Assembly (NCBI GenBank): GCA_030690895.1
Contig: JAUYFQ010000012.1
Coordinates: forward strand, 1 to 64,000
DNA length: 64,000 nucleotides
Direction: 5' to 3'
From: Sulfuricellaceae bacterium
Lineage (GTDB): Bacteria; Pseudomonadota; Gammaproteobacteria; Burkholderiales; Sulfuricellaceae
The notes below the pieces were generated by a model, which was not told the DNA's origin, made no database searches, and saw nothing but the letters and a program-made list of their open reading frames with translations. A program made the position numbers and the translations under genes. Positions 4,106-54,420 of this stretch are shown here, one piece after another. How positions within the stretch are numbered: position 1 is the first letter of the stretch; each line of letters starts with the position of its first letter.

Positions 4106-4580
4106 AGTGTTGCTTTCCCGCTTTACAGACAGACTGAACGCCGAACTTAAGACGTTCAAGGAATTCGAACTTCTACTTCAGGAAGAGCAGCAAACACTGA
4201 TCGATGGTCAGATCGACCTGCTGATTGCACTTGCTCCCCGAAAATCCATGCTGATCAAGCACCTTTCCGATTTTTCCGATGAGCGCACCCAGGTGTTATC
4301 CGATGCGGGGCATGAAAGCAGTCCAGCCGGAATGCTGGCACTGCTCGACGAAACAGGGGCGAACGCAGGTACCCGCCAAATATGGGCGGCATTGCTGACC
4401 CTGGCGCGCGAAGCAGACCACACCAACCGTCGCAATGGCGCCCTCATTGAAACGCATCTAAGCCACAACCAGCAGGCACTATCCGTTCTACGTGCCGCAG
4501 CCAACCCAGTCAATAATCTCTACAGCGCGAGCGGTCAACTCAGCCACATGCCTGGCAGCAAACCCATCGATAAAGCCTGA
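4068..4580 (+). CDS. flgN: Flagellar export chaperone FlgN
   Basis: FlgN is the cytoplasmic export chaperone for the hook-filament junction proteins FlgK and FlgL. The 170-residue helical product has the family pattern FTDRLNAELKTFKEFELLLQ and a following LIDGQIDLLIALAPRKSMLI. The ATG at 4068 overlaps flgM by 38 bases. A GTG at 4107, just after the flgM stop, would give 157 residues beginning near LLSRFTDRL and is an equally good start. Its place after flgM is the standard order. A disordered Ser/Pro tail ends the protein. Confidence 0.9.
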   Translation: MTSGTCSKIKRTEVLLSRFTDRLNAELKTFKEFELLLQEEQQTLIDGQIDLLIALAPRKSMLIKHLSDFSDERTQVLSDAGHESSPAGMLALLDETGANAGTRQIWAALLTLAREADHTNRRNGALIETHLSHNQQALSVLRAAANPVNNLYSASGQLSHMPGSKPIDKA

Positions 4581-4622: not shown

Positions 4623-5045
4623 TTACGCGTTAACCCTCTTGGCGCCAAGCTTGGCATCGAATTTTTCCTTGTTGATCACAAACCGCTCATGTCGCCCCCT
4701 GGAGATCAGGTCTATACCATCGTGGGCCTCCACCGCAAAGACGAGCTTTTTTCCTTCGACAGCGATCAACTCCACAGTAGCCGTCACTTCAAGACCGGGT
4801 GGGGTTGCCGCTTCGTGGCTGACATCGATGTGGATTCCCACTGTTTGTTCCTGTGGCCAATCGAGATGAGGATTGATCGCCTTGATACAGGCCCATTCGA
4901 GAAAACCAACCAGGAAGCCCGTAGCAAAGACTTCCGGCATTGCCACGAACTCATCCGACTCCGGATAAAGCGCCGGGACGGTTTTCGATTGCGGAACCAC
5001 GAACTTGTGCTCGTATCTGATACCGGGCTTCAAAGTTTCCTTCAT
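4623..5045 (-). CDS. Hotdog-fold thioesterase, fluoroacetyl-CoA thioesterase-like
   Basis: This 140-residue protein resembles the FlK-type single hotdog thioesterases, which hydrolyse short acyl-CoA esters. Recognisable parts are MPEVFATGFLVGFLEWACIK, which aligns to the hotdog helix with a Glu, and GIHIDVSHEAATPPGLEV with a candidate catalytic His. The start at 5045 is chosen because GGAGAAG lies just before it. It stands alone and converges on flgN. The natural substrate cannot be told from sequence; this family is often annotated simply as thioesterase. Confidence 0.75.
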   Translation of the reverse strand: MKETLKPGIRYEHKFVVPQSKTVPALYPESDEFVAMPEVFATGFLVGFLEWACIKAINPHLDWPQEQTVGIHIDVSHEAATPPGLEVTATVELIAVEGKKLVFAVEAHDGIDLISRGRHERFVINKEKFDAKLGAKRVNA

Positions 5046-6384: not shown

Positions 6385-6437
6385 CCTGTTCCCTTCTGTT
6401 TCCTTATAGATACGGCCATTCAATACCTGCGTTTGGC

Positions 6438-6513
6438 GTAGGTCGGGTTAGCGCAGCGTAACCCGACAATTCATCGGCAATCTGTCGGGTTACGCTGCGC
6501 TAACCCGACCTAC
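6438..6513. repeat. Palindromic repeat, family GTAGGTCGGGTTAGCG
   Basis: Left arm GTAGGTCGGGTTAGCGCAGC is matched by the exact reverse complement at 6494-6513, giving a hairpin of about 30 bp per arm with a short loop. It lies upstream of the membrane protein gene. Its ends begin GTAGGTCGG, like the repeats at 11854 and 24121. Confidence 0.85.
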
Positions 6514-6619
6514 GGGGTTGTGCGGGCAACCCGGCTCTGCGACTCAGAGAGGAATGTCGCGCTGGGGGTGCTGCTGTCGAGGATCGTTCATCGGTCTATT
6601 TTGCTTGCCGTTAGCTATT

Positions 6620-10582: not shown

Positions 10583-11926
10583 TCAATGGTGCCCCTCCTC
10601 CGCTTCGTTCCCCAATGGCCACAACTGGTGCGTATCCAGCAGCAGGCGGTAGCGCGTTTCAGCGGCTTCAAACCGGGCAAGGGTAGCGGCAAGACGCGCT
10701 TCCATGCCCTGACGGCGCGCCACCAGCACCTCGTTCAGGCCCATCTCGCCCAGCGTGTAGGCGCGTGCCATTTTTTCTTCATTGCGCTGTATCAGCTCGC
10801 TGGCTTCAGCCGCACTTTGCCAGTTGGCGTAGCTTGCCCTTGCGTTGTTGAAAGTGCTTGAGATTTCAGCCTCTATCCGACGCAGCACCAAGGCTTCGCG
10901 CTGCGCGGCCATCTCTGCATGCGCCTGGGACTCGGCACTGGCCGCGCGCCTGGCTCCGCCCGGCAAGGGGATGGAAAAAACCACGCTGGTCACATTCTCG
11001 CTGCCGTTGCGCTCGGAATTGTAGTTCAGACCCAGTGTTGGGTCGGGCATTCTATCGGCGTCCATGCGCTGGGCGGTCAGTTGGGCGATTTTCGATTCGG
11101 CGCGAGCCAGCATCAATTCATGATTATGATCCAGCCCCAGATCCAGCCACCAGGCGACATTCTGGGTCAATGGCAGAGGGTTTTCGGCGGCCCCCGGTGT
11201 CGGGCCAGTTGTCGCCGACGGAAGACCCAGCGCAGGGAAATAGCGGGACAATTCCATGCTCGCGTTATCAGCGCGCAAACTTGCCTGGCGGAGTGAAATT
11301 TCCGCCTGCATCAGCGCTGCCCGCGCCATATCTTCTTCAAGACGGGAAGCATCGCCCGCCTTGACGCGGCGTGCCACGACATCGAGTTGCTGTTTCAACA
11401 CGCTCACTTGTTGCTGCCATTGTTCGCTTTGAGTACGCTCACGCATCACAGCAAACCACTTGGACAACAAGCTGCGCCCCGCTTCGTGCATGGCGTCTCC
11501 ATAGGCGTTTTGCGACAGCACCAGGCCTTGCTGGCCGAGCGCGACATCGAGACTGGCCTTGCGCGGCAAGCGCAGCGCGCGTTCCAGGCCGAGATCCCAC
11601 TCCTGGAAGCGCTCGCCGGTGTCGACGCGCCGACGGCCTGCCCCGGCAACGATATTGATTTCGTGCGGCCCGCTTTCCAAACGCTCGCGTGCCGCTTCGC
11701 CGGCCTTGATGCCGGACTGTGCCGCCAGGACAGAGGGGTAGCTTTGCAGCGCCTGTTGCACCACGGCCTGAGGCGGCAAATCGGGATATTCCCTGAATTC
11801 CGCTGCCCTGGATGAAGTTGCAAAAACAAGCCCAATGGCGATAAGTGCTAACTGTAGGTCGGCCTTCAGGCCGACGTGTCGGCCTGAAGGCCGACCTACA
11901 TCTTTTTGCGAGATTACCGGGTTCAT
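10583..11926 (-). CDS. czcC: CzcC-type outer-membrane efflux protein
   Basis: This is a TolC-fold outer-membrane factor of a heavy-metal RND pump. It has the two repeated OEP segments with long helices, for example LLSKWFAVMRERTQSEQWQQ and RRQGMEARLAATLARFEAAE, and a PDPTLGLNYNSERN segment. The 447-residue length fits. It is the last gene of the operon and overlaps the DUF3240 gene by four bases. The first 25 residues are odd: a palindromic repeat (11854-11899) encodes residues 10-25 (VGRPSGRHVGLKADLQ) directly before the signal-peptide core LALIAIGLVFATSSRAA. The repeat therefore supplies the basic n-region of the signal peptide, unless translation starts elsewhere. Confidence 0.88.
   Translation of the reverse strand: MNPVISQKDVGRPSGRHVGLKADLQLALIAIGLVFATSSRAAEFREYPDLPPQAVVQQALQSYPSVLAAQSGIKAGEAARERLESGPHEINIVAGAGRRRVDTGERFQEWDLGLERALRLPRKASLDVALGQQGLVLSQNAYGDAMHEAGRSLLSKWFAVMRERTQSEQWQQQVSVLKQQLDVVARRVKAGDASRLEEDMARAALMQAEISLRQASLRADNASMELSRYFPALGLPSATTGPTPGAAENPLPLTQNVAWWLDLGLDHNHELMLARAESKIAQLTAQRMDADRMPDPTLGLNYNSERNGSENVTSVVFSIPLPGGARRAASAESQAHAEMAAQREALVLRRIEAEISSTFNNARASYANWQSAAEASELIQRNEEKMARAYTLGEMGLNEVLVARRQGMEARLAATLARFEAAETRYRLLLDTHQLWPLGNEAEEGHH
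11854..11899. repeat. 46-bp palindrome GTAGGTCGGCCTTCAGGCCG inside czcC
   Basis: GTAGGTCGGCCTTCAGGCCG is followed by its near-perfect inverted copy, giving a 46-bp cruciform-like unit. The same unit recurs at 24121-24166 between flagellar genes with a one-base change. Here it lies within the czcC reading frame. Confidence 0.9.
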
Positions 11927-12234
11927 GCGAACCTCCCAAATTCATTGACCGGTGCAATCCAGTAGGCGATATCCTTGCTCGGCAGGCTTTCCTTGAAATG
12001 GGCAATCAGCGTCCGTGCATCCTCGTGATCCATCACCACTTCCATTTTCACCCGCCACGCACGACCGCGCACCTGCTCGTTGACGCTGTGGTAGACGGCA
12101 ACCTGGCCGTGCCCTTCCACCTCGTAAGTGGTGAAACCGCTGGCCAGTTCCGGGTGTTCCAGCAAGTGGTCGATCATGTTTTCTTCCAGCCCTTTAGGGA
12201 AGACGATAGTCAGACAACAATCCAGTTTTTTCAT
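11923..12234 (-). CDS. DUF3240 family protein of the efflux operon
   Basis: The 103-residue product (MKKLDCCLTIVFPKGLEENM) matches the DUF3240 family, small cytoplasmic proteins often encoded beside CzcA-type pumps. It has the fold pattern of a PII/ACT-like alpha-beta protein, with EHPELASGFTTYEVEGHG and WRVKMEVVMDHEDARTLIAH. A Cys pair and several His residues are present, but metal binding is not shown. The gene overlaps the stop region of czcA on one side and czcC on the other, so it is translated with the pump. Its function in the family is not established; a regulatory or metal-sensing role is a guess. Confidence 0.8.
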   Translation of the reverse strand: MKKLDCCLTIVFPKGLEENMIDHLLEHPELASGFTTYEVEGHGQVAVYHSVNEQVRGRAWRVKMEVVMDHEDARTLIAHFKESLPSKDIAYWIAPVNEFGRFA

Positions 12235-15200
12235 TATTTATTCTCCCCGGCCACCCCAAACCGCTGGTAAAGCAGCGGCAGGATGATTAGTGTCAGCAGC
12301 GTAGAGCTCAGCAATCCGCCAATCACCACGATGGCCAGCGGCTTCTGGATTTCCGAACCGGGACCGCTGGCGAATAGCAGCGGAACCAAGCCGAAGGCGG
12401 TAATGCTGGCGGTCATCATCACCGGCCGCAATCGCCGTCGAGCGCCCTCCACCACCACTTCGGCCAGCGCCATGCCCTGCTCCCGCAACTGGTTGAAATA
12501 GCTCACCATCACCACGCCGTTCAAAACGGCAATGCCGAGCAGGGCGATGAAGCCGACCGACGCCGGCACCGACAGGTATTCGCCCGACAGCCACAGCGCC
12601 CACACGCCGCCGATCAGGGCGAAAGGGATATTGGCGAACACCAGCGTAGCCTGGCGCATCGAGCCGAACGAGGCAAACAGCAACAGGTGGATCAGCGCCA
12701 GCGCAACCGGCACCACGACCGCCAGGCGCGCTGCAGCACGTTGCTGGTTCTCGAACTGCCCGCCCCAAACCAGGCTGTAGCCGGAAGGAGGCGGCGCCTG
12801 TTTCGCTGCCGCCTGCTTGGCTTCCTCGACGAAACCCACCAGGTCGCGGCCGCGCACGTTGGCGACCACCACGGCGTAGCGTTGCGAGTTTTCGCGCTCG
12901 ATCTTGACCGGGCCATCCACACGCTTGAGGCTGGCTACGCTGGAGAGCGGCACGCTCTTGCCGGAAGGCAGGGTCAGGTTCAGGCCCGCAAAAACTGCCG
13001 GAATATCGCGCACGTCATCCTCGCCGCGCAGCAGCACAGGCGTGCGGCGCATTCCTTCCTGCACCACGCCCAGCACCTGGCCTTCGAGCTGAACGCGCAG
13101 GATCTCGCCAATCTCGTCCACCGACAAACCCATGCGTCCGGCGGCAAGGCGATCAATATCGATTTTCAGATACTGCACGCCCTCGTTCATCACCCGGTAC
13201 ACATCCTCGCTGCCCTTGATGCCCTTGAGCAGGGTTTCGATCTTCTCGGTCTCCTGATTGAGCGTCGCCAGGTCGGGGCCGAAAATCTTCACCGCTACGT
13301 CGCCGCGCACGCCGATAATCATTTCCGAAACGCGCATGTCAATGGGCTGGGTAAAGCTGTAAGCCACGCCAGGAAAGTCCTTGAGCACCTCGCGCAACTG
13401 GTCGGTCAGCCATTCCTTGTCGGGATTGCGCCACTCCTTGCGCGGCTTCAGCACCAGAAAGGTATCGGTCTGGTTGAATCCCATCGGATCCAGGCCAAGT
13501 TCGTCCGAGCCGACGCGCGCAACGACGCCCTTCACCTCCGGCACCTGTTTCATGAGGGCCTGCTGGATTTTCAGATCGAGCTGGAAACTTTTTTGCAGGT
13601 TGATCGAAGGCAGCTTCTCGATACCGATGATGATGTCGCCTTCGTCCATCACCGGCATGAAGGTCTTGCCGATGAAGGGATACACCACCGCCGTCACGGC
13701 CAGCGCAGCCAGCGCGCCGAAGGCCACCTGCTTGCCGTGCCGCAGCGCCCACTTCAGGACTGGCATGTAGACTGCAACGAGCTTTCTCACCAGCCAGGGA
13801 TCCTCATGACTACCCTGTTTCAGAAAATAGGAAGCCAGCACAGGGATCACCGTCAGCGACAGAATCAGCGAGCCTGCCAAGGCAAACACGATGGTCAGCG
13901 CGACCGGGATGAAGAATTTGCCTTCCAGTCCCTGCAAGGTCAGCAGCGGCAGGAACACCACGATGATGATCACCACGCCCGAGGCCACCGGCATCACCAC
14001 TTCCTTGACCGCCCGGTAAATCACATGCAGGTGCGGGATATTCTTGGCACTGCGGTCATGGGCGAGATGGGAAACGACGTTCTCCACTACCACCACCGCC
14101 GCGTCCACCAACATGCCGATGGCGATCGCCAGCCCGCCCAGGCTCATCAGGTTGGCCGACATGCCGAACAGGCGCATCAGGATGAAGGTGAACAACGCTG
14201 CCAGCGGCAACGTCACCGCCACTACCAGCGCGGCGCGCAAATTGCCCAGAAACAGCAGCAGCAGGATCACCACCAGCACGATGGCTTCCAGCAGAGCCTT
14301 GGAGACGGTGCCGACGGCGCGCTCCACCAGGCTGCCCCGGTCGTAGAAGATTTCGGCCCTGACGCCAGGAGGGAGCGATGGTGCGATCTCCTTCAGGCGC
14401 GCCTTGACGCCGTTCACCACTGTTTGCGCATTGGCGCCGCGCAGGCCCAGCACCAGCCCTTCCACCGCCTCTCCACTGCCGTCCTTGGTAACCGCACCGT
14501 AGCGGCTCAGGTGGCCGATGCGCACCGTGGCCACGTCGCCCACCCGCACCACCTGTCCGTCGCGGCTATTGATAACAATCGCGCGCAGGTCGTCAAGAGT
14601 CTTGATCGCCCCCTCGCTGCGCACCAGCAGGACTTCCTCGCCATCCTTGATGCGACCGGCGCCGTCGTTGCGATTGTTGGTCTCCAGCGCTGTCTGCAAT
14701 TGACCCAGCGAAACGCCGCGCGCCAGCAAGGCTGCATTGTCCGGCATCACCTCGAAGCTCCTGACCAGCCCGCCCAGCGCATTGACATCCGCCACGCCGG
14801 GCAGGGTGCGCAGCGCCGGGCGTATCACCCAGTCAAGCAGGGAGCGCCGCTCCAGCAAGGTGAGATCGCCGCCCTCGATGGTGAACATCAGCATCTCGCC
14901 CAAGGGCGTGGTAATCGGCGCCAGACCGCCGCTGACACCGGATGGCAGATCCTTCATCACGCCGGAAAGCCGCTCCGCCACCTGGTTGCGCGCCCAGTAG
15001 ATGTCGGTGCCGTCCTCGAAATCCAGGGTAATGTCGGTGAGGGCATATTTCGATACCGAGCGCAGGATTTTCTTGTTGGGAATTCCCAGCAGTTCGACCT
15101 CGATCGGCGCCACGATGCGTGACTCCACTTCTTCCGGCGTCATCCCCGGCGCTTTGATAATCACCTTGACCTGGGTCGAGGAAACATCGGGAAAAGCGTC

Positions 15201-15311
15201 GATCGGCAGCGTCTTGAAAGCCAGCGCACCGGCAGCGACCAAGGCCAGCGTGCTGATGATGACAACCAGTCGCTGGGTGAGGGAGAATTCAATCAGGCGT
15301 GCGAGCATCAT
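12234..15311 (-). CDS. czcA: CzcA-family heavy-metal RND efflux pump
   Basis: The 1025-residue inner-membrane pump uses the proton gradient to expel metal cations through CzcB and CzcC. It begins MMLARLIEFSLTQRLVVIIS and has the expected 12-helix RND layout with two large periplasmic loops. The helix-4 signature reads AIAIGMLVDAAVVVVEN. In CzcA of Cupriavidus the corresponding stretch has two Asp and one Glu (DFGxIVDxAVxxxEN). Here the first Asp position is not acidic, which is closer to the CusA-like pattern, so the transported metal is uncertain. The gene overlaps czcB by four bases. Confidence 0.92.
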   Translation of the reverse strand: MMLARLIEFSLTQRLVVIISTLALVAAGALAFKTLPIDAFPDVSSTQVKVIIKAPGMTPEEVESRIVAPIEVELLGIPNKKILRSVSKYALTDITLDFEDGTDIYWARNQVAERLSGVMKDLPSGVSGGLAPITTPLGEMLMFTIEGGDLTLLERRSLLDWVIRPALRTLPGVADVNALGGLVRSFEVMPDNAALLARGVSLGQLQTALETNNRNDGAGRIKDGEEVLLVRSEGAIKTLDDLRAIVINSRDGQVVRVGDVATVRIGHLSRYGAVTKDGSGEAVEGLVLGLRGANAQTVVNGVKARLKEIAPSLPPGVRAEIFYDRGSLVERAVGTVSKALLEAIVLVVILLLLFLGNLRAALVVAVTLPLAALFTFILMRLFGMSANLMSLGGLAIAIGMLVDAAVVVVENVVSHLAHDRSAKNIPHLHVIYRAVKEVVMPVASGVVIIIVVFLPLLTLQGLEGKFFIPVALTIVFALAGSLILSLTVIPVLASYFLKQGSHEDPWLVRKLVAVYMPVLKWALRHGKQVAFGALAALAVTAVVYPFIGKTFMPVMDEGDIIIGIEKLPSINLQKSFQLDLKIQQALMKQVPEVKGVVARVGSDELGLDPMGFNQTDTFLVLKPRKEWRNPDKEWLTDQLREVLKDFPGVAYSFTQPIDMRVSEMIIGVRGDVAVKIFGPDLATLNQETEKIETLLKGIKGSEDVYRVMNEGVQYLKIDIDRLAAGRMGLSVDEIGEILRVQLEGQVLGVVQEGMRRTPVLLRGEDDVRDIPAVFAGLNLTLPSGKSVPLSSVASLKRVDGPVKIERENSQRYAVVVANVRGRDLVGFVEEAKQAAAKQAPPPSGYSLVWGGQFENQQRAAARLAVVVPVALALIHLLLFASFGSMRQATLVFANIPFALIGGVWALWLSGEYLSVPASVGFIALLGIAVLNGVVMVSYFNQLREQGMALAEVVVEGARRRLRPVMMTASITAFGLVPLLFASGPGSEIQKPLAIVVIGGLLSSTLLTLIILPLLYQRFGVAGENK

Positions 15312-16459
15312 TCACCCCCGCCCAGGCCTTGCCAAGCCGCCTTGAGCGCTACCGTGCCCTTGGCCGCCACTTTCTCATCACCACGCAATTCGCCTGTAAT
15401 CGTGATCGTGGCCGTTGCCTGGCCAAGCACCTGGACGGGCTGAGGGCGATAGCCGGCAGGCGTCTGCACAAAAACATAAGCCTGATTTCCAGCCCGCACC
15501 AACGCGGCATTGGGTACCGCCCACTGCTTCGCGCCCACCACCGAGCCCACCACGGCCTCCACATACTGGCCGGGACGCAAATTACCGGCATCGTCGCTTA
15601 CTTCCGCCTGCACCGTGACAGTCTGATTAGCCTCGGAAACACTTCGCCCAATCGAAATCACCTTGCCAGTGATTCTGGCATCGCGCAGCGATCCCGCGTC
15701 CCTCTCTCCCCCCGGGAGAGAGTTAGGAGAGAGGGAAGCCGGGACGCGCACCGATGCACCAGGTTTCAAGGTACTGACCTGACTCAGCGGCACCTGGATT
15801 TCCAGCAACAAGGGTGACAGTCGCGCCACCTTGAACAGCGGTGCTGCCGCCTCGACGCGCTGGCCCGGTTCGATCAGCAGTTCCAGCACCACGCCCTCGA
15901 TGGGCGAGGCAATATCCAGCCCGCTGACGATGGACTGGTTTGTTTGCATTTTTCCGATCACCGCATCGCCTACACCCGCCAGTCGCAACGCCTGACGCTT
16001 CTCATTGGCGATCGCCGCCGAGGTCAGGGCAGCATTCCGCGTTGCCAGGAAACGACTCTCGGCAATGATGCCTTCCTTGAACAACCCCTCGTCGCGGTTC
16101 AGGGAATTTTGCGCAAGCTGCGATTGCAGCGCCGCTTGCAGATAATCGCGCTGCAATTGGGCCAGATCGGGGCTTTGCAGGCGCAGCAGCGGCTGGCCTT
16201 TTTTCACGTTCTGGTTAACCGCCACAGCCAGGCTTTCCACCATGCCCGCCAGGGGCGCGCTGACGACCCGAATCTGTTGGTTCGGGATCATGACCTTGGC
16301 CGGCAGCGCATTGCCGGTGCCAATTGAGGACGCCATGAGCGGGACGGTTTCGATACCCAGCGCCTGTGACTGTTTGGCTGTCATGGGGATATCGGCGCCA
16401 GCTGTCGCCAGGCCGGAGCAGCACAGGGAAATAACCAGAAATAATGGGATAAATTGCAT
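15308..16459 (-). CDS. czcB: CzcB-type periplasmic adaptor of the RND pump
   Basis: This membrane-fusion protein links CzcA to CzcC. It starts MQFIPLFLVISLCCSGLATA, a signal peptide, at 16459, after a strong GGAGGAG. It has a barrel-sandwich/lipoyl half (VVSAPLAGMVESLAVAVNQN, KKGQPLLRLQSPDLAQLQRD), a helical hairpin and beta-barrel segments. A palindromic repeat at 15696-15747 is carried in frame and encodes about 17 extra residues (SLSPNSLPGGERDAGSL) between VRVPA and RDARITGKV, inside the beta-barrel region. The frame stays open, so the protein is probably made with this surface insertion. Confidence 0.9.
   Translation of the reverse strand: MQFIPLFLVISLCCSGLATAGADIPMTAKQSQALGIETVPLMASSIGTGNALPAKVMIPNQQIRVVSAPLAGMVESLAVAVNQNVKKGQPLLRLQSPDLAQLQRDYLQAALQSQLAQNSLNRDEGLFKEGIIAESRFLATRNAALTSAAIANEKRQALRLAGVGDAVIGKMQTNQSIVSGLDIASPIEGVVLELLIEPGQRVEAAAPLFKVARLSPLLLEIQVPLSQVSTLKPGASVRVPASLSPNSLPGGERDAGSLRDARITGKVISIGRSVSEANQTVTVQAEVSDDAGNLRPGQYVEAVVGSVVGAKQWAVPNAALVRAGNQAYVFVQTPAGYRPQPVQVLGQATATITITGELRGDEKVAAKGTVALKAAWQGLGGGE
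15696..15747. repeat. Palindromic repeat inserted in frame in czcB
   Basis: TCCCTCTCTCC (15699-15709) pairs with GGAGAGAGGGA (15726-15736), and outer GCGTCCC pairs with GGGACGC. It belongs to the CCCTCTCC/GGAGAGGG class also seen near 18745, 41508, 42120 and 58829. It replaces no codons and adds a low-complexity stretch to CzcB. Confidence 0.8.
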
Positions 16460-16553
16460 ATTGACTCTCCTCCCCCGGGTGATATGGGGGAAATACCATA
16501 ACACTGTTAGCCGACACGCGTGCCGAACTACCTATTTTTACGATTCTAGATGC

Positions 16554-22011: not shown

Positions 22012-24092
22012 GCTCTTGCGCCCAGTACTGCGGTCACGCGGATGTTTCTCGAATCAGGGATTTCAGCATGGGAAATGACTTTAAGTTGGGGTGCGACCCG
22101 GCGCAGAAAGCGCGAAAGTACAGGCCGCAGCACGGCAGGAACCAGCAACACCGCCGACAGGCCCATCTGCTCCTGCTGCTGGACGGCTTCCGTCGTCTGG
22201 CGCATCAGGTTTTCCGCCAGACCAGGCTCCAGCCCGAGGCTGTCACCCATTCCCTGAGTAGCATGCACCATGATCTGTTCGAGATCGGGTTCTAGGGTTA
22301 TCACCTGCAACTCTGCGGCTCCCGGTTGGATTTGCTGCATGATAGCACGGCCAAGCGCGACACGAACCGCAGCGGTCAGGTCGGCGGGGTCCTGGCTACG
22401 GCTGGCATGATCGGCCAGAGTATCAATGATCGTGCGCATGTCCCGGATATGCACACCCTCATCCATCAAGTTCTGCAACACCCTCTGCACCACGCCCAGC
22501 GGCAGGAGTTTGGGCACCAGGTCTTCGACCAGTTTGGGTGATTCCTTGGCGAGATGATCGAGCAGTTGCTGGGTTTCTTCCCTGCCCAGCAATTCGGATG
22601 CGTGCGTCTGCACGATATTGGAAAGATGCGTTGCCACCACCGTGCCGGAATCAACCACCGTATAGCCGAAGGTCTGCGCCTGATCGCGCAGGTTGGCCTC
22701 GATCCAGATCGCGGGCAGACCGAATGCCGGATCAGTGGTCGCCACACCCGGCATGGAGCCAAGCACCCGCCCCGGATTGATGGCCAGATACATGCCGGAA
22801 AAAGCCTCGCCCTGACCGATCTCCACCCCTTTCAGGGTGATGCGATAGCCGTTCGGGCGCAGTTCCAGATTATCGCGAATATGCACGGGCGGAACCAGAA
22901 AACCCATTTCCTGGGCGAACTTCTTGCGGATACCGCGTATCCGGCGCAGCAACTCGCCATCCTGGCTGCGATCCACCAGAGGAATCAGGCGATAACCGAC
23001 TTCCAGTCCCAGCGCGTCGACTTGCACCACATCACCCCAGCCGACTTCCTGCATTTCCGGGGCCGGTACTGCCTCGGGCGGCGTTTCCGGCAGGTCTGGC
23101 GCGCGCGCCTTCTGCTCAAGGTAATAGGCCGACCCGGCCAGAATGCCCGCCAGCAACAGGAAGGCCACATGCGGCATGTTCGGGATCAAACCCATCAGAC
23201 CCAGAATACCCGCCGTGATGTAAAGCACGGATGGACGGTTGAATAGTTGACCGATGAACTGCTGCCCCAAATCGCCCTCATCCGTCGCGACCCGGCTGAC
23301 CACCAGACCGGCGGCAGTTGAAATGATCAGGGCGGGAATCTGCGCCACCAGACCGTCGCCAATTGCCAGCAGGGTGTAATAGTTGGCGGCTGTTTCAAAC
23401 GAAAGATTGTGCTGCAACACCCCGACCAGCAACCCGCCGATCACGTTGATGAACAGGATCAGAATGCCCGCGATGGCGTCGCCGCGCACAAATTTGCTCG
23501 CACCATCCATGGAGCCGAAGAAATCCGCTTCCTGTGAAATTTCGGTGCGACGCCTGCGCGCTTCATCTTCGCCAATCAGGCCGGCGTTCAGGTCGGCGTC
23601 GATCGCCATCTGCTTGCCCGGCATCGCATCCAGCGTAAAGCGCGCGGAGACTTCCGCAATTCTCCCGGCGCCCTTGGTAATCACCACGAAATTGATCACC
23701 ACCAGGATGATGAACACCACGATACCGACCGCGTAGTTTCCGCCCACCAGAAAATGACCGAATGCCTCGATCACCTTGCCTGCCGCATCCGGTCCCTTAT
23801 GGCCTTCCAGCAGGACCACGCGGGTCGATGCCACGTTCAGGGAAAGCCGCAACAGGGTCGTAACCAGCAGGACAGTCGGAAAAACCGAAAACTCCAGGGG
23901 CTTCACGGTGTACAGGCTGACCAGCATGACTATCATCGCCAGCGCGATGTTGAAGGTAAACAGGATATCCAGCAGAAATGGCGGCAATGGCAGAATCATC
24001 ATCCCCAGAATCATGATGATGAGAACCGGCCCGGCCAGCGCCTTCAGGTTTTTGCTGGCGAAAAACGGCAGGGTTTCGACGCGCGCGTTCAT
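22008..24092 (-). CDS. flhA: Flagellar export gate protein FlhA
   Basis: FlhA forms the cytoplasmic ring and ion channel of the flagellar type III export gate. The 694-residue protein has eight N-terminal membrane helices, the conserved FHIPEP-family loop (RFTLDAMPGKQMAIDADLNA) and a large cytoplasmic domain (IRGIRKKFAQEMGFLVPPVH; LLDHLAKESPKLVEDLVPKL). It normally follows flhB directly; here a BrnT/BrnA toxin-antitoxin pair lies between them. Confidence 0.97.
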   Translation of the reverse strand: MNARVETLPFFASKNLKALAGPVLIIMILGMMILPLPPFLLDILFTFNIALAMIVMLVSLYTVKPLEFSVFPTVLLVTTLLRLSLNVASTRVVLLEGHKGPDAAGKVIEAFGHFLVGGNYAVGIVVFIILVVINFVVITKGAGRIAEVSARFTLDAMPGKQMAIDADLNAGLIGEDEARRRRTEISQEADFFGSMDGASKFVRGDAIAGILILFINVIGGLLVGVLQHNLSFETAANYYTLLAIGDGLVAQIPALIISTAAGLVVSRVATDEGDLGQQFIGQLFNRPSVLYITAGILGLMGLIPNMPHVAFLLLAGILAGSAYYLEQKARAPDLPETPPEAVPAPEMQEVGWGDVVQVDALGLEVGYRLIPLVDRSQDGELLRRIRGIRKKFAQEMGFLVPPVHIRDNLELRPNGYRITLKGVEIGQGEAFSGMYLAINPGRVLGSMPGVATTDPAFGLPAIWIEANLRDQAQTFGYTVVDSGTVVATHLSNIVQTHASELLGREETQQLLDHLAKESPKLVEDLVPKLLPLGVVQRVLQNLMDEGVHIRDMRTIIDTLADHASRSQDPADLTAAVRVALGRAIMQQIQPGAAELQVITLEPDLEQIMVHATQGMGDSLGLEPGLAENLMRQTTEAVQQQEQMGLSAVLLVPAVLRPVLSRFLRRVAPQLKVISHAEIPDSRNIRVTAVLGARA

Positions 24093-24120
24093 GCCGACCC
24101 TCTCGGATCAGAAAAAATAT

Positions 24121-24166
24121 GTAGGTCGGCCTTCTGGCCGACATGTCGGCCTGAAGGCCGACCTAC
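24121..24166. repeat. 46-bp palindrome, second copy of the czcC repeat
   Basis: GTAGGTCGGCCTTCTGGCCG is followed by its inverted copy to 24166. It differs by one base from the arm of the copy at 11854-11899. It lies in the gap between brnA and flhA. Confidence 0.9.
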
Positions 24167-24242
24167 AGTGTGCGTCCCATATTTAACAGCCATCTACATA
24201 ACACTCACTTAAATCGCCTCACGGGCTAGGTTCTGTTGACAT

Positions 24243-24446
24243 TTACCCTGCCACCGCCCGAATCGACTCGATATCATTCTTCAATAGCTGATTGATCAAC
24301 TGGTTGACCGTTGTTCCCCGTGCCTCCGCTCGGGTTGCCAAAAAATCCAATACATCGGGTTCCAGACGAACGGGCGGAATCAGGCGCAAATTTGGCCGAA
24401 AAAACTTGCCGCGTTCGGCATTGCTGAAATCGTATTCATCTTTCAT
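24243..24446 (-). CDS. brnA: BrnA-type antitoxin
   Basis: The 67-residue product (MKDEYDFSNAERGKFFRPNL) ends in a ribbon-helix-helix-like region, with RLEPDVLDFLATRAEARGTT and VNQLINQLLKNDIES. It fits the BrnA/CopG antitoxins that pair with DUF497 toxins. The start at 24446 has a near-perfect GGAGGTGA 6 bases before it, which rules out the upstream in-frame codon. It lies 33 bases downstream of the toxin gene; toxin-first order is the rule in BrnTA. The pair sits inside the flhB-flhA gap. Confidence 0.85.
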   Translation of the reverse strand: MKDEYDFSNAERGKFFRPNLRLIPPVRLEPDVLDFLATRAEARGTTVNQLINQLLKNDIESIRAVAG

Positions 24447-24479
24447 GAGATCACCTCCATTCCTCGCCACTCACCCACA

Positions 24480-24785
24480 TCACTTCTGCTCGTACTGTTC
24501 GCGCTCACGTCGAGTCGCCTGACGCGCAGAGACCAGGCGCACCAGTGCTGTGTTCGACCCGGTACTGGCGAAGGTATGAACAATCAACAGCAACCGGTCT
24601 TTCCCAGAGCACCCCAGACTTACCCAGCGATCCTCATCTTCGCTATGTTCATCATCATAACGGGTCATTGCCAGCGGATCGACAAACACCGTCATAGCCT
24701 CCATGAAGTCCACGCCGTGTTTGCTCGCGTTAATCTCGGCTTTCGCATCATCCCATTCAAATTCATAATCTGCATTGGTCATCAT
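24480..24785 (-). CDS. brnT: BrnT-type toxin (DUF497, RelE-fold RNase)
   Basis: The product of about 100 residues matches the DUF497/BrnT family: FEWDDAKAEINASKHGVDF at the N-terminus, DDEHSEDEDRWVSLGCSG in the middle, and VRLVSARQATRREREQYE at the C-terminus. Basic and aromatic residues expected for RNase activity are in place, so the gene looks functional. Two adjacent Met codons (24785, 24782) are possible starts. BrnT is a ribonuclease that BrnA neutralises and represses. It is expressed in the same direction as the flagellar genes and may ride on flhB transcripts. Confidence 0.88.
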   Translation of the reverse strand: MMTNADYEFEWDDAKAEINASKHGVDFMEAMTVFVDPLAMTRYDDEHSEDEDRWVSLGCSGKDRLLLIVHTFASTGSNTALVRLVSARQATRREREQYEQK

Positions 24786-44619: not shown

Positions 44620-44698
44620 GTGCGAATTTACTTGTGCCCGTTTTGTGGGTATTCGTACATATAACCCCATTGATCGTGCGAATGAATTCGCACCTACA
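44616..44698. repeat. Palindromic repeat, family GTAGGTGCGAATT, after suhB
   Basis: GTAGGTGCGAATTTACTTGT is matched at the other end by GAATTCGCACCTAC. Within it lies CTTGTGCCC (44631-44639), seven bases, then GGGTAT. It resembles the copy at 1-47. It spans the suhB stop and the end of the hybrid kinase gene. Confidence 0.85.
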
Positions 44699-54226: not shown

Positions 54227-54420
54227 TGAACCACGAAGTACACGAAAAACACGAAACGGGGTAAGCAGGCATTTCGCCGGAAGGCGAAAGCTCGCAAAAA
54301 ATTCATAAAGATACAAGATGACTGCGCATCACCTGATGGGTGAGTGGATATTCCTGTTCAACCATTTGTCGCCTAGAGGTGCCTACTTTTGGTTTATTTC
54401 GTGTGTTTCGTGGTCGAAAT
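54227..54420. repeat. Nested inverted repeat after mutS
   Basis: GAACCACGAAGTACACGAAA at the left pairs with TTTCGTGTGTTTCGTGGT at the right. The inside carries a reversed copy (about 54253-54297) of the hairpin unit found before flgA, reading GGGGTAAGCAGGCATTTCGC. No gene is present in the 257 bases between mutS and slyD. Confidence 0.8.

Follow-up and report, generated by a model that had tools for sequence, protein, structure and literature searches.

Repetitive extragenic palindromic (REP) units and their inverted pairs (REPINs) have been described primarily outside genes: 14 of the 16-mers, among 1,067 occurrences, overlap genes in the study of Bertels and Rainey (2011; PMC3116915). A survey of GTAG-tagged REPs places them mainly downstream of coding regions, where they are plausibly transcribed, and warns that many N-terminal REPs are possibly non-coding, since starts could lie downstream of them (Di Nocera et al., 2013; PMC3733652); signal peptides are absent from the parts of that survey covered here. 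Translation inside a handful of REP elements has been mentioned for E. coli (PMC12350097). Rickettsia palindromic elements, about 150 bp long, are likewise read in frame within many unrelated genes, and the term "signal peptide" is absent from the main text of the review (PMC10969869). The nearest precedent for repeats inside signal peptides is the enterobacterial RU-2, which supplies residues 1–30, including the start, of one putative exported protein, YPO1552, whose homologues have unrelated signals (Delihas, 2007; PMC2759123). All these statements refer to the consulted parts of the respective sources. Here, we consider a REPIN read in frame within the predicted signal peptide of a CzcC-like outer-membrane protein, encoded in a 64,000-nt stretch (the window) of a Sulfuricellaceae bacterium genome (assembly GCA_030690895.1, contig JAUYFQ010000012.1). 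Both the occurrence of REPs within genes and that of a repeat within a predicted signal peptide have already been published, and thus the pattern is of a known kind; the literature searched, which lay largely outside subscription papers, yielded no description of REPINs that occupy n-regions where genes overlap.

A REPIN within the czcC reading frame

The features at the center of the analysis are as follows.

10583–11926, minus strand: gene of the CzcC-like outer-membrane efflux protein, 447 aa (Pfam OEP, PF02321, E = 5.2e-31)
11804–11926, minus strand: inferred signal peptide, 41 aa, with codons 1–8 native and 9–25 from the repeat, followed by the hydrophobic core (sequence reading, hydropathy)
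11853–11900, minus strand: 48-bp REPIN-like repeat, codons 9–25 of the czcC-like gene, in frame (palindrome, pattern search, fold)
11923–12234, minus strand: DUF3240 (PII-like) gene, its TGA overlapping the czcC ATG (ATGA); the repeat starts 22 nt past this stop

The repeat is a near-perfect palindrome with 23-bp arms, 100% complementary, around a 2-nt center. Each half is a GTAG-tagged REP unit, GTAGGTCGGCCTTCAGGCCGAC, and the inverted pair constitutes a REP doublet, or REPIN; units of the family open with TGTAGGTCGG or TGTGGGTCGG, that is, with GTAG or its variant. The RNA fold of the repeat, with a 22-bp stem, has the energy of -46.4 kcal/mol, and none of 200 shuffled sequences was equally stable. 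The half-site pattern has 80 matches in the 3.54-Mb genome of this window (below, G000), compared to three matches of the reversed control pattern. Because the shuffles are never as stable and the half-sites far exceed the control, the palindrome in czcC is not due to chance. An earlier, sequence-only reading of the window had recognized this repeat, although with the length of 46 bp, and had correctly placed a second, intergenic copy near position 24121.

The N-terminus of CzcC reads MNPVISQK-D-VGRPSGRHVGLKADLQ-LALIAIGLVFATSSRA-AEF, where MNPVISQK is native, D9 is followed by the repeat peptide up to Q25, and the core comes next, so that, as had been proposed, the repeat is read directly before the hydrophobic core. 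The n-region, the core, and the small residues of a Sec signal peptide are all recognizable, the cleavage site S-R-A/A being assigned by the -3,-1 rule only. Compared to the joined flanks without the repeat, MNPVISQKELALIAIG, which still form a plausible signal, the n-region grows from nine to 23 aa, Lys and Arg from one to four, and Asp and Glu from one to two. The suggestion that the repeat provides the n-region thus holds for the basic residues that it adds, but not for the start of the signal, as the start codon and codons 1–8 are native. The longer signal would presumably still export CzcC. The repeat residues are absent from the other 46 distinct CzcC N-termini compared (49 loci, 47 of them distinct), so that this comparison did not bear out the counter-evidence of relatives with identical codons, which the sequence-only reading had also named, and the n-regions of congeners comprise 3–5 aa in the four measured, with no repeat.

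The position of the start codon is essential here, given the general warning on N-terminal REPs (Di Nocera et al., 2013). The czcC ATG at 11926 is preceded by GGGAGG and overlaps the upstream stop, and most of the 19 czcC loci compared in relatives start at the same kind of GGGAGGTTCGCATGA junction. A start downstream of the repeat, which the sequence-only reading had named as counter-evidence, was ruled out: after codon 1, no in-frame ATG, GTG, or TTG occurs before codon 50 (the number is derived from the offset), within the mature protein. The upstream ATG is the only usable start, and therefore the repeat is translated if czcC is; that czcC begins downstream and the repeat is a part of the 5' untranslated region seems very improbable. 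REPs inside genes are common to the 2013 survey and to this genome, and here the start is fixed by the gene overlap.

The assignment to CzcC-type outer-membrane factors follows from the OEP domain and the adjoining genes of a heavy-metal RND pump and its adaptor:

12234–15311, minus strand: CusA/CzcA-family heavy-metal RND pump gene (TIGR00914, 1038.3 bits, cut-off 701.45)
15308–16504, minus strand: efflux RND periplasmic adaptor (CzcB-like) gene (TIGR01730, 113.8 bits, cut-off 94.9)

The TIGR01844 score of the CzcC-like protein is below its cut-off and none of the substrate-specific (Co/Zn/Cd) models is passed, the name CzcC being the label of the sequence-only reading. The protein is matched in 38 out of 61 genomes searched, over most of its length in 19 genomes of the same bacterial family; the nearest named one is a metagenome-assembled genome of Sulfuricella denitrificans (72% identity).

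A hairpin of this stability 22 nt past a stop codon could also be primarily an RNA element of the czc operon, protecting the czcB–czcA–DUF3240 message or lowering czcC translation, with the translation of the repeat incidental, and the location of REPs downstream of coding regions, where they are plausibly transcribed, is consistent with that (Di Nocera et al., 2013). However, relatives keep the same gene order without the repeat, which makes such a role unlikely as the explanation; it is compatible with the one preferred below, as the two are not exclusive.

The repeat family and its N-terminal cases

Grouping of the half-sites of G000 gave 43 elements, including a weak singlet (C124:39458) that has two mismatches. 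The elements are mostly 48-nt inverted pairs, the others being 28–61 nt long, with some singlets; hence, the family is high-copy and dominated by doublets. Two further features are connected with it.

24120–24167, no strand assigned: intergenic copy of the repeat, the second in the window, 96% identical to the first and located upstream of an flhA-like ORF
L074:4486–4935: REP-associated tyrosine transposase (RAYT) gene, 149 aa (NF047646, 150.9 bits, cut-off 80)

GTGG-variant REPs lie on both sides of the transposase gene (4449–4471 and 4951–5009), and a second gene of the NF047646 family is found on another contig, L003. The inverted REP doublets, the long hairpin, and the RAYT gene flanked by REPs are shared with the REPIN–RAYT systems, but while REPINs there are primarily extragenic (Bertels and Rainey, 2011), at least 11 out of 43 elements in G000 lie within genes. 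The remainder look mostly intergenic by a codon-usage score, which was trained on 27 open reading frames (ORFs) of the window and is crude. In congeners and in some other genomes of the bacterial family, there are related doublets whose stems show compensating changes.

Five of the in-gene elements are internal, in genes of uracil-DNA glycosylase, an AMP-binding enzyme, EarP, HsdR, and HsdM. The doublets in the restriction–modification genes hsdR and hsdM (L075:3057–3107 and L084:3215–3275) are in frame and belong to the GGGATTCATCCC sub-family. The N-terminal linker of uracil-DNA glycosylase carries a REP doublet in two congeners, G000 (L033) and the genome G004 (L140); the two doublets differ in sequence and occupy roughly equivalent positions.

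Six proteins of G000 have the repeat near the N-terminus: CzcC, a cytochrome-d1-like lipoprotein, an S13 carboxypeptidase (PBP4-like), an MsrQ-like protein (Ferric_reduct), an Slt-like protein, and a second SLT-domain protein. According to sequence reading and hydropathy, all six have a signal peptide or a first membrane helix at this end, and for all six genes the homologues compared lack the G000 repeat, e.g., MRKLIGFLLLLLPLTAHAGAQ-type starts correspond to MRKLIEFNYL-repeat-SSRSILLVISMLCSGLSAGNALAGAQ. The first 16 codons hold six out of 11 in-gene elements, compared to 0.47 expected from gene lengths, a descriptive comparison, as these 11 are the clearest elements, picked after inspection of the data. 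The adoption of the repeat, considered rare in the sequence-only reading, is thus repeated in six exported or membrane proteins of one genome, and uniqueness of czcC in this respect was ruled out by the genome-wide census of elements. Unlike RU-2 (Delihas, 2007), the G000 REPIN is preceded by a native start and followed by a native core, and this holds in several known protein families. N-terminal REPIN insertion appears to be a tidy pattern across exported proteins rather than a one-off.

The assembly is fragmented and the inverted repeat is short, so one might suspect that an assembly error put the repeat inside czcC. This is extremely improbable, given that the repeat throws none of the six N-terminal genes, and none of the internal cases, out of frame, and each gene continues beyond it.

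Several other repeats were seen alongside this family. In the genome G012, the signal peptides of an SLT-domain protein (L265) and of an S13 protein (L227) seem to hold other interspersed repeats (RGHSW, FIRVHPW). The window itself contains another GTAG-tagged palindrome at 6437–6514, with 32-bp arms, 100% complementary and 14 nt apart (CGTAGGTCGGGTTAGCGCAGCGTAACCCGACA), whose stem differs from that of the czcC repeat; a 33-nt repeat at 15–47 and 44666–44698 (91% alike), which holds GTGCGAATGAATTCGCACCTACA and resembles a further palindromic repeat; and a 42-nt unit in two tandem copies at 2909–2998 (86% alike), with an inverted copy 51 kb away at 54253–54300 (91% complementary). Downstream of the second copy of the czcC repeat lies the ORF beginning at 24092 on the minus strand, which is flhA-like; beside this copy, two small ORFs at 24240–24785 presumably resemble a BrnT/BrnA-type toxin–antitoxin pair.

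Positions just after upstream stop codons

In each of the six N-terminal genes, the start overlaps the stop codon of the upstream ORF or lies within 11 nt of it. All upstream ORFs have Pfam matches, and the distance from their stop to the element is 22 nt for czcC (upstream family DUF3240), 18 nt for the cytochrome-d1-like gene (cytochrome c), 25 nt for the S13 gene (beta-CASP protein), 20 nt for the MsrQ-like gene (molybdopterin oxidoreductase), 34 nt for the Slt-like gene (threonine dehydratase), and 26 nt for the second SLT-domain gene (class II tRNA synthetase with an editing domain). Such a location is frequent for the family as a whole: 22 out of 43 elements in G000 lie at most 60 nt past a coding stop, compared to 7.5% of random window positions, although this control mixes coding and intergenic positions and thus partly measures gene avoidance. 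It seems, then, that the repeat keeps its usual place after a stop codon, and the gene overlap makes this place the n-region of the next protein. The overlap of czcC with the preceding stop, as well as the REP doublet nature of the repeat and the REP-associated transposase in the genome, had been missed by the sequence-only reading.

We consider it likely that the REPIN was placed or kept 3' of the DUF3240 stop, that the overlap turned it into the czcC n-region, and that the insertion was tolerated. The REP-associated tyrosine transposase encoded in G000 would have spread the element, which would have been inserted, or retained, within a short stretch immediately 3' of the DUF3240 gene, a common location of REPs. 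Because czcC starts on the DUF3240 stop (ATGA), this stretch coincides with czcC codons 9–25, that is, with the n-region of the signal. The tolerance would be explained by the length of 48 nt, a multiple of three (16 codons), by the lack of stops in two of the three frames, and by the fact that both resulting peptides, CRSAFRPTxRPEGRPT and VGRPSGRxVGLKADLQ, are basic and non-hydrophobic; a signal n-region would accept such peptides in either reading.

The repeat might instead have been taken up adaptively, restoring positive charge to a poor native n-region, which was the idea of the sequence-only reading. Indeed, the n-region of the joined flanks, MNPVISQKE, has one Lys and one Glu, compared to four Lys or Arg, two Asp or Glu, and one His with the repeat, and the short n-regions of congener CzcC proteins contain two basic residues. 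However, even with the flanks joined directly, the signal would keep a lysine, an unblocked amino terminus, and its complete core; most homologues of the other five genes carry a basic residue close to the start although they have no repeat, and therefore insertion needs no charge deficit; finally, the elements are generally biased to positions after stop codons. Adaptive uptake is thus rather improbable, and we think a benefit of the repeat to CzcC less likely than tolerance.

Long CzcC n-regions and other repeats in relatives

Five of the CzcC loci compared have long n-regions that contain or resemble repeats, namely, those of G000, G014, G015, G019, and G020, all from one bacterial family; long CzcC N-termini also occur in G055 and G067. 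The repeats are different: the CRCAGAG repeat, absent from G000, has 15 matches in G014, 60 in G015, 22 in G020, and nine in G019, and stands at the czcC start in G014 and G015; the GTAGGAGCGGC palindrome, a second GTAG-type repeat, is matched 23 times in G019, including two matches at the czcC start, inside the extension; and the czcC n-region of G020 resembles a related palindrome. Since the four long n-regions of genus g2 (G014, G015, G019, and G020) share similar arm remnants by eye, some of these cases may descend from one insertion, and we do not claim independence of all N-terminal cases.

The arrangement at gene junctions recurs with the G015 repeat, unrelated to that of G000. Among 28 elements examined in G015, the N-terminal cases are czcC, the gene of an ApbE lipoprotein, and a second M16 peptidase gene. 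The apbE ATG is located within the terminal part of the glutathione synthetase gene, with the element 8 nt past that stop, and the second M16 gene overlaps the first one, with the element 10 nt past the stop. In G019 (14 elements examined), czcC is the clear N-terminal case.

Apart from the limits on the two counts given above, several observations weigh against tolerated insertion at gene junctions as a feature of exported proteins. Two other genomes with many related doublets, G004 and G012, have few such cases. The only N-terminal cases among 37 elements of G004 are a candidate TilS, which is cytosolic, and one unclear exported candidate (L147), and none of the 27 elements in G012 is a clear N-terminal case of the REP doublet family. 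As the uracil-DNA glycosylase linkers of G000 and G004 contain repeats, tolerance extends beyond signals. Possible alternative starts exist in two genes, a TTG just past the repeat in the S13 gene of G000 and a GTG at the repeat's end in the M16 gene of G015. The ORF upstream of the cytochrome-d1-like gene is non-coding by codon usage (-4.8), yet has the Pfam cytochrome c domain. The G000 assembly comprises 186 contigs with 6.37% contamination, and insertion at czcC itself is deduced by comparison with congeners that are 69–76% identical.

It is conceivable, though we suggest it tentatively, that small palindromic repeats recurrently find a niche in signal-peptide n-regions where genes overlap, the only spot of a compact operon in which a hairpin could follow a stop codon and be translated without harm. 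One repeat would then be an RNA element with respect to the preceding gene and would encode a basic n-region in the following one, and repeat families that are unrelated to each other would have reached this niche by convergence within the bacterial family. Being fixed by the gene overlap, the czcC start bears on the doubt, raised in 2013, over translation of N-terminal REPs. It also calls for caution, as an oddly long signal peptide of a metagenome protein can result from repeat insertion and not from a wrong start call. The suggested rule is that a repeat can enter a protein just past the stop codon of the preceding gene, provided that the protein is exported and its own gene overlaps or abuts that stop.
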